A stretch of 64,000 bases of DNA, taken from the NCBI GenBank assembly GCA_012270555.1, contig JAAXIC010000014.1:1-64000 (forward strand). Direction: 5' to 3'. Source of the DNA: Chloroflexota bacterium (GTDB lineage: Bacteria > Chloroflexota > UBA11872 > VXOZ01). The notes under the pieces were generated by a model. The model saw nothing but the letters and a program-made list of their open reading frames with translations. It was not told where the DNA came from and made no database searches. A program made the position numbers and the translations under genes. Below, in pieces: positions 35,069 to 37,365 of the stretch. The first letter of the stretch is position 1, and the number at the start of each line of letters is the position of its first letter.

Positions 35069-35731
35069 TTGGATGCGGAGGCCGCCCTGCGTGTAGCAGT
35101 GCTCATATCGGGACGAGGCAGCAACTTGCAAGCGCTCATCGACGCGATCGCTGGCGGGAGCCTCGCTGCCGAGATTGCTGTCGTCATTTGCAACCACAAG
35201 AACGCGCCGGGCATTCAGAGGGCGCGCGCGGCCGGTATCGCTGCCTATGTCTTTGTGCGGCGCGACTATGAGTCCCGCGAGGCACAGCATGGGGCAATGT
35301 TGGCTTGCGCGCAGGAGCATGACGCAGAACTGATTGTCCTTGGCGGCTTTGATCGTATCCTTGCGCGGGCGTGGGTAGAGGCCTATCCGAATCGGATCAT
35401 CAACATTCACCCGTCGTTGCTGCCGGCCTTTGCGGGTGGGATGAATCCCAAACCGCAGCAGGATGCCCTGGAGGCTGGCGTGAAGATTGCTGGATGCACT
35501 GTGCACATTGCCACCGCTGAGGTGGACGCCGGTCCAATCGTGGCGCAGGCCGCGGTGCCCGTGCTGGCGGATGATACCGTTGACACCCTTGCGAACCGCA
35601 TCTTGGCGCAAGAACATCGGCTGCTGCCTCAGGTCGTGCAATGGTTTGCGGAAGGCAGAGTACGCGTCGAAAATGACAGTGTGCGAATTGCCGGCGTGAT
35701 TCCATCTCGCTGGTGGAGTGACGCGGAGTGA
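35069..35731 (+). CDS. purN: GAR formyltransferase
   Basis: The 220-residue protein, with a TTG start, shows the PurN signature order: ISGRGSNLQALID, a [11 protein letters not shown] segment, and NIHPSLLPAFAG holding the catalytic Asn and His. GCTVHIATAEVDAGPI carries the catalytic Asp. It transfers the formyl group of 10-formyl-THF to GAR. The next gene, a cyclohydrolase-family protein, overlaps its stop by 4 bp, linking formyl-THF supply directly to use. Confidence 0.94.
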   Translation: MDAEAALRVAVLISGRGSNLQALIDAIAGGSLAAEIAVVICNHKNAPGIQRARAAGIAAYVFVRRDYESREAQHGAMLACAQEHDAELIVLGGFDRILARAWVEAYPNRIINIHPSLLPAFAGGMNPKPQQDALEAGVKIAGCTVHIATAEVDAGPIVAQAAVPVLADDTVDTLANRILAQEHRLLPQVVQWFAEGRVRVENDSVRIAGVIPSRWWSDAE

Positions 35732-36369
35732 GCGACACGCAAGGGGAAGAGAGTGTAGTGATTACTGAGCGGAGCATTCATGCGTACTTAGAAGACCTAG
35801 CTGCCCGCGAACCGACCCCCGGGGGCGGCAGTGTGGCTGCGCTAGTCGGAGCCCTTGCCGCGGGTCTGGCTGCCATGGTTGCCAACTTCACTCGGGGGAG
35901 TAAGAAGTACGCGGCAGTCGCTCCCGAGGTCGAGCATCGGCTCGCACAGTTGGGCCACTCTCTGCAAACCCTAGAGGAATTGGTGCAGAAAGACATCGAT
36001 GCGTACGGTGCCGTGGGGGTGGGATTTGCCATGCCACGCGGCACCGCTGCCGAGCGCTCGACGCGATCCAGCCACATTCAGCGGGCTTCAGTTGCAGCCA
36101 CGGAGGTGCTCTTCGAAATTGCCGACGCGTGTACTGACGTCAGCGGGCATGCCATGTGGCTTGCCAAGCACGGCAACACAAACCTTGTCTCAGACGCTGT
36201 GATGGCAGTACTCTTGACGGACGCTGCGCTACGGGGGACAGTCGTTACGATCGAGTCTAGCCTGAGTTTTCTCAAGGACGCCAATGTGGTCGCGGCGATG
36301 CGCGATCGTCTTGTGGCCTATGAAAGAGTGTCAAGAATACGTGAGGAGGCCCTGTCGCTTACTCGGTAG
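35728..36369 (+). CDS. FTCD_C cyclodeaminase/methenyl-THF cyclohydrolase-family protein
   Basis: The GTG start overlaps the purN stop (GTGA), and the product is 213 residues of mostly alpha-helix. The N-terminal block REPTPGGGSVAALVGALAAG is the folate-site signature of the formiminotransferase-cyclodeaminase C-terminal family, which includes FchA methenyl-THF cyclohydrolase of acetogens. Later NTNLVSDAVMAV matches the second family block. Fusion to a formiminotransferase is absent. Placement between purN and a FolD with altered cyclohydrolase residues suggests a 5,10-methenyl-THF cyclohydrolase role making 10-formyl-THF. That role is inferred from context; a cyclodeaminase role is the alternative. 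Confidence 0.85.
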   Translation: MSDTQGEESVVITERSIHAYLEDLAAREPTPGGGSVAALVGALAAGLAAMVANFTRGSKKYAAVAPEVEHRLAQLGHSLQTLEELVQKDIDAYGAVGVGFAMPRGTAAERSTRSSHIQRASVAATEVLFEIADACTDVSGHAMWLAKHGNTNLVSDAVMAVLLTDAALRGTVVTIESSLSFLKDANVVAAMRDRLVAYERVSRIREEALSLTR

Positions 36370-36498
36370 CATGGGGTCGGCGACTGTTGGTTGAAAGTGA
36401 TCCCACCGGACTGAGTGACATGGTAGCTGGCCGTACTTGTCGCGTTCATTGAATCGGAGGCGACACGCACGGAGAAACACGGAAGGGGTTGGAAAGTA

Positions 36499-37365
36499 AT
36501 GGCACTGGTGCTCGACGGCAATCGTGTTGCCCGGGTCATGGGCTGGAGACATCGGGACGAACTCAAAGACATTCAGAAGCGTCTTGGGCATCCGCTGACG
36601 CTGGCAGTTGTGCGAGCAGGCGAGGATAAGGCATCGGAGAGTTACCTACGCCAAATCGAGAAGCTCTGTCGTCGTGCCGGTATGGAGTTTGAGGAGCACA
36701 TACTTTCGGCAAGCGACCGTGAGCAATTCATCGGCAAGATTTGCAGTCTCAACGCCGATTCGCGCATCACAGGGATAATGCTCAGTTGGCCGCTGCCAGC
36801 TGACTGGGATCAAGAACTGATCGCCATGACCTTGGATCCGCGCAAGGACATCGATGGCTTGCATCCGTTGAATGCCGGGCGCGTTTTTCTCGGCGGCGCG
36901 AGCCTGGGCATGGATGCGTTTGTGCCGAACACGCCTTTTGGTGTCATTCATCTTCTGCGACACTATGAGATTCCGGTGCGTGGCAAGCATGCCGTCCTCA
37001 TCGGCCGCAGCAGCGTGGCGGGGCGACCCTTGGCTGCGCTACTGATCGCCCACGATGCTACGGTAACGGTCACGCACAGTAAGACGGTTGACCTCGCCGG
37101 CCATACCAGGCAAGCTGACATTCTGCTTGTGGCTATGGGCAAGGCAAACTTTGTCACCCCGGATATGGTGAAACCGGGCGCGGTAGTCGTGGATATTGGT
37201 ATCAACGTGACCCCAGACGGGCTTGTCGGTGACGTGCAGTATGATGCCGTGAGCGAAGTGGCCAGCGCGATTACACCGGTGCCGGGCGGCGTCGGGCCGG
37301 TGACGAACGCGATGCTCATCGCCAATACCATACGCGCAGCCCGCCTGCAGTCTACCTTGGCTTGA
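36499..37365 (+). CDS. folD: FolD-family methylene-THF dehydrogenase with altered cyclohydrolase site
   Basis: The 288-residue protein has the FolD fold and landmarks: [28 protein letters not shown] for NADP binding and [11 protein letters not shown] near the C-terminus. Aligned on Tyr49, the catalytic lysine of the YxxxK motif (Lys54 in E. coli, Lys56 in human) is Ile53. The glutamine of the usual VQLPLP motif is Ser96 (LSWPLP). Work on the human enzyme showed that replacing this lysine removes cyclohydrolase activity but can leave dehydrogenase. This gene is therefore predicted to be a dehydrogenase only. A separate cyclohydrolase-family gene lies 129 bp upstream. Confidence 0.9.

Follow-up and report, generated by a model that had tools for sequence, protein, structure and literature searches.

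A lysine-less FolD and an adjoining FchA-type protein as a predicted split of the methenyl-THF cyclohydrolase step in a Chloroflexota genome

Gene order and gene content

In most bacteria, one enzyme carries out both folate half-steps. The window analysed here, a stretch of 64,000 nucleotides from a Chloroflexota bacterium (contig JAAXIC010000014.1, assembly GCA_012270555.1), carries two adjacent genes that appear to share these steps, directly after a gene whose product, phosphoribosylglycinamide formyltransferase, uses 10-formyl-THF. The genes and the diagnostic sites in folD, the latter located by alignment to E. coli FolD, are as follows:

35069..35731, + strand: purN, phosphoribosylglycinamide formyltransferase (TIGR00639, 224.5 bits; cutoff 150.1)
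35728..36369, + strand: fchA, predicted stand-alone FTCD_C/FchA-type methenyl-THF cyclohydrolase, 213 aa (PF04961)
36499..37365, + strand: folD, predicted NADP-dependent methylene-THF dehydrogenase without cyclohydrolase, 288 aa (PF00763 and PF02882)
36655..36657, + strand: Ile53 codon (ATC), at the position of the cyclohydrolase lysine (E. coli K54)
36784..36786, + strand: Ser96 codon (AGT), at the Gln98 position
37003..37029, + strand: intact dinucleotide-binding loop GRSSVAGRP, residues 169–177

The first-pass annotation had described a gene of the cyclodeaminase/cyclohydrolase family upstream of folD and coupled to purN, and both the PF04961 match and the gene junction agree with this description: the two genes share 4 bases (GTGA), the GTG start of fchA overlapping the stop of purN at 35731. 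Each of the six genomes of the genus (L006–L011, L223) has purN immediately 5' of fchA. In most of them the two frames overlap, G005 being an exception, so the 4-base overlap is not universal; the gene order in G005 (L223) is purM-purN-fchA-folD-eno-larB. The identities of purM and purN are backed by NCBIfam models, and putative purQ, purL and purF genes, recognised by translation, lie further upstream (29230–33827). Between fchA and folD there are 129 bp, in which a consensus scan detected neither a sigma-70-like promoter nor a terminator, although such a scan carries little weight in a non-model phylum. Two adjoining genes lie 3' of eno at 39076–41087; the first corresponds to LarB (nickel-pincer cofactor), judged from its synteny with L223, and the second is LarC-like by eye only.

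The genome (97.4% complete) contains one FolD, one PF04961 gene and one Fhs. Its sole FolD is therefore the lysine-less protein, accompanied by a stand-alone FchA. A second, normal folD elsewhere in the genome, which had been named in advance as counter-evidence to a split, was not found; three PF02882 matches were weak and below the cutoff. The presence of Fhs means that 10-formyl-THF has another possible source, and FchA is not claimed here to be the sole route.

Residues of FolD and identity of FchA

The FolD protein matches both Pfam domains over its full length and above the cutoffs (PF00763, 82.5 bits; PF02882, 203 bits), whereas among the 25 NCBIfam models listed it falls below the cutoffs of those for bifunctional FolD. 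Alignment to FolD of E. coli MG1655, which also provides the residue numbering, placed SYLRQIEKL opposite the E. coli motif IYVASKRKA (K54 to Ile53) and GIMLSWPLP opposite GILVQLPLP (Q98 to Ser96). Both replacements had been read from the sequence beforehand and were reproduced in this alignment; the protein thus lacks the residue pair that characterises a bifunctional FolD. Tyr50, Lys56 and Asp121 of the E. coli enzyme are retained as Y49, K55 and D119, and so is the PGGVGP motif. With the GxSxxxGxP loop, Tyr50 and Asp121 all present, the residues expected of a dehydrogenase are complete, and the intact NADP loop would support retained dehydrogenase function. None of the six genomes of the genus has K54 in FolD, each having the same Ile, and omega for FolD within the genus is 0.04–0.11, indicating strong purifying selection. 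Ile53 is therefore neither a sequencing error nor the mark of a pseudogene.

Mutants of the E. coli enzyme indicate what such replacements could mean. K54N has undetectable cyclohydrolase and ca. 19% dehydrogenase activity, and Q98H retains ca. 1% cyclohydrolase and ca. 8% dehydrogenase activity (PMC5688156). On the basis of these data, a FolD without both residues is expected to be a dehydrogenase. The conservation of the window FolD suggests that it probably performs this reaction well.

The adjoining FchA matches PF04961 (FTCD_C) at 160 bits against a cutoff of 24.5 and, in a phmmer search, PDB 7vg4, a methenyl-THF cyclohydrolase (E 5.9e-27) which we take to be the Methylobacterium-type Fch. 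It has the residues that are invariant across a 22-member alignment (P31, GGG32–34, D89, P103, R113 and D156), and its omega within the genus is 0.06–0.21. The score against the NCBIfam FchA model NF045657 was 141.1 bits, under the equivalog cutoff of 275. Of the 196 class genomes surveyed around C. ultunense, 69 had a match and none reached that cutoff; the model appears to be narrow and, used at its cutoff, will miss most FchA proteins. The window protein is not an FtcD: it matches PF04961 only, and the formiminotransferase domain PF02971 was found neither in the protein nor in a search of the genome. Since the genome has no formiminotransferase, the classical role of FTCD_C in histidine degradation is unlikely here.

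Lysine loss and FchA across genomes

For Chloroflexota, 251 genomes were searched for each protein family and the FolD neighbourhoods were then read in detail. Many of the surveyed genomes are MAGs. The headline counts use FolD-anchored loci only (158 FolDs; 155 genomes, 54 families). Loci retrieved through the position of FchA (L193–L221) were left out, as they would inflate adjacency. An FchA gene adjoined folD on the same strand for 65 of 83 lysine-less FolDs (18 without) and for 0 of 75 lysine-bearing ones. The predicted co-occurrence of lysine loss with the adjacent gene thus emerged as a tight association, although the corresponding Fisher p of 4e-28 takes no account of common ancestry and should not be read literally. 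Among the families, 26 had lysine-bearing FolDs only, 26 had lysine-less FolDs only, with an adjacent pair in 20 of them, and two were mixed. A search of the 41 genomes belonging to the same class as the window detected 35 FolDs, every one with I, V or L instead of K54, and FchA occurred in 35 of the 41.

When FchA anywhere in the genome was counted, 79 of the 83 lysine-less FolDs were accompanied. The four exceptions without an FchA match comprised two MAGs, G035 (77% complete) and G228 (76%), and two genomes with a second FolD in tandem, G092 and G142. Second, weaker PF00763 matches occur in some genomes of lysine-less families (f14, f16, f18, f21, f36 and f39); if these are lysine-bearing FolDs, the rule weakens in those families.

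The two tandem cases (G092, L112 2311–4128; G142, L106 2234–4093) have no FchA. In both, the first FolD has Ile54 and a normal loop, GRSNIVGKP, and the second keeps the lysine with an altered NADP loop (NVDNMVGKP or SADNLVGKP). This arrangement looks like a division of labour by duplication, in which one FolD is predicted to be a dehydrogenase only and the other a cyclohydrolase only. The tandem genes of G092 are flanked by acsV-like and acsD-like Wood-Ljungdahl genes.

A FastTree phylogeny of 169 FolDs, computed with the trait columns removed, showed ca. six changes between lysine and non-lysine states. Nearly all lysine-less FolDs fell into one clade (support 94) together with seven lysine-bearing members, and the loss in G092 and G142 was separate from this clade. 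At position 54, the tree shows 24 changes of residue, involving I, L, V, A, Q and K. Many independent lysine losses are ruled out by the ca. six changes of lysine state and the single main clade. Most of the association is contributed by a single deep clade of FolD. An independent-pairs test offered only 3–6 pairs, too few for significance. Rather than to repeated losses of recent date, the tree points to an old, putatively dehydrogenase-only subfamily of FolD accompanied by FchA.

The pattern extends beyond the phylum. At loci found through FchA, the adjoining FolDs of Chloroflexota have I or L at position 54, those of Armatimonadota (L236) and of the bacteria at L240 and L249 have Gln, and a Gln-bearing FolD of Omnitrophota (L237) lies ca. 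0.9 kb from FchA. Among clostridia, all 11 readable FolDs at FchA loci have Ala. Where FchA is located elsewhere in the genome, FolD is often lysine-less as well, with Ile in C. ultunense, Ala in Thermobrachium, Synergistaceae and Calditrichales, and Gln in Planctomycetes. FchA also occurs with lysine-bearing FolDs, and several genomes combine it with a normal FolD. For this reason, the rule suggested by the sequences is one-way: a lysine-less FolD would need another cyclohydrolase, and FchA would not require lysine loss. In Paenibacillus rigui (L233/L328) and Paradesulfitobacterium (L305), a FolD beside FchA keeps K54 and has Glu in place of Gln98; P. rigui has an additional normal FolD (L304).

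Taken across these lineages, the lysine-less FolDs of Chloroflexota, Clostridia, Armatimonadota, Planctomycetota and others could form one deep dehydrogenase-only subfamily obliged to a second cyclohydrolase, a view that we favour with some reserve. FchA would be one means of meeting the obligation. The other, in two Chloroflexota lineages with small genomes that fall outside the main clade, would be a K54-keeping, loop-altered tandem FolD, once in a Wood-Ljungdahl cluster.

The neighbourhood of the pair differs among relatives. Outside this genus, it is found beside fhs, metF-like, folP, thyX or other genes, many relatives having the order fchA-folD-fhs, whereas within the genus it adjoins purM-purN, not fhs. 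The purine-operon setting proposed in the first-pass annotation thus holds for the genus, with purM-purN upstream, but not elsewhere, and Fhs is another possible source of 10-formyl-THF; the setting is local to the genus. Genomes with a lysine-less FolD and FchA were divided between 48 with Fhs and 47 without. In the latter, FchA is therefore the only recognised 10-formyl-THF-making enzyme, and fchA is predicted to be the sole gene for this function. In the relative G058 (L152), a formiminotransferase gene (FTCD_N and FTCD) adjoins FchA-FolD(K54I)-Fhs, and FchA in some relatives may also serve as a cyclodeaminase.

Proposed division of labour and known systems

Several observations on the window pair, namely its residues, the gene order, the single-copy state of both genes, their purifying selection and the association across the phylum, lead us to consider it very probable that FolD acts as a dehydrogenase only and that the adjoining FchA supplies the lost cyclohydrolase half. 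This had been the central proposal of the first-pass annotation, and the single FolD, the association of lysine loss with FchA and the E. coli K54 mutant all speak for it. The presumed activities, cofactor preference and flux would be as follows. FolD would convert 5,10-methylene-THF to 5,10-methenyl-THF with NADP+, reversibly, and FchA would hydrolyse methenyl-THF to 10-formyl-THF, also reversibly, which is the half-reaction that FolD would have lost with its lysine. Located after purM-purN in this genus, the pair could feed both formyl-transfer steps of purine synthesis; together with the Fhs of the genome, it could link formate to methylene-THF. Because methenyl-THF hydrolysis may also occur spontaneously (PMC5688156), FchA need not be essential.

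Two rival readings dispute this split. The FTCD_C protein might be a formimino-THF cyclodeaminase of histidine or purine breakdown, located next to folD incidentally, as PF04961 includes cyclodeaminases and a formiminotransferase gene adjoins the FchA-FolD-Fhs cluster of G058. However, PF02971 is absent from the genome of the window, fchA is located in a purine biosynthesis operon, and lysine-bearing FolDs of the phylum never adjoin FchA, with fused FtcD-length proteins occurring in lysine-bearing families; this role is very improbable. It is likewise highly unlikely that FolD retains cyclohydrolase activity through another residue, which would make FchA a redundant or specialised second cyclohydrolase. 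FchA lies beside a lysine-bearing FolD in two genomes, showing that coexistence with a normal FolD is possible, but the lysine is essential in E. coli (PMC5688156), its replacements at position 54 vary (I, L, V, A or Q) and include no basic residue, and a lysine-less FolD without another cyclohydrolase gene was found only in two incomplete MAGs.

A further alternative concerns the direction of flux and leaves the division of labour unchanged: Fhs, FchA and FolD might mainly assimilate formate toward methylene-THF for serine/glycine and methyl groups, and not supply 10-formyl-THF to purine synthesis. The Fhs in this genome, the common fchA-folD-fhs order in relatives and the reversible chemistry fit such a role. 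Against it, fchA and folD lie with purM-purN and not with fhs in this genus, and 47 genomes carry the pair without Fhs. We regard formate assimilation as the main function as a tentative and rather unlikely reading for this genome.

The predicted split of FolD and FchA has practical consequences. Databases label lysine-less FolDs as bifunctional, so that metabolic reconstructions of Chloroflexota and many uncultured phyla would assign the cyclohydrolase step to the wrong gene. A simple annotation rule can be built from one residue and one adjoining gene. Since K54N FolD is insensitive to carolacton (PMC5688156), inhibitors that require K54, such as carolacton, should not hit the lysine-less subfamily.

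Clostridia are already known to divide this step between FolD and FchA; of greater interest are the rule for the subfamily as a whole and the tandem FolD variant. Split FolD and FchA with Fhs in C. perfringens is attributed to Aluri et al. 2016 by the papers citing it (PMC7219735, PMC11559097), and the separate cyclohydrolase of C. formicoaceticum to Clark and Ljungdahl 1982, as cited in PMC13040438. Syntrophic acetate oxidisers also have fchA and folD as neighbours (PMC3584212). No open paper tying the residue at position 54 to FchA across phyla was found in a literature search that covered mainly open-access papers. As in the window, the clostridial FolD and FchA are separate genes, with Fhs in the genome and FchA-adjoining FolDs without K54, but clostridia have Ala at the lysine position, whereas the window has Ile and a purine operon. 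Yeast MTD1 (PDB 1edz) is, as proposed for the window protein, a FolD relative with dehydrogenase activity only; it is, however, eukaryotic, NAD-dependent and very distant (47.5 bits), and we know of no FchA partner for it. The bifunctional FolD of E. coli shares the fold, the NADP loop, Tyr50 and Asp121 with the window FolD and differs in having the catalytic Lys54 and Gln98. In Methylobacterium extorquens, MtdA and Fch likewise represent a dehydrogenase and an FTCD_C cyclohydrolase as two proteins, but MtdA belongs to a different dehydrogenase family, whereas the dehydrogenase of the window is a genuine FolD (PF00763/PF02882).
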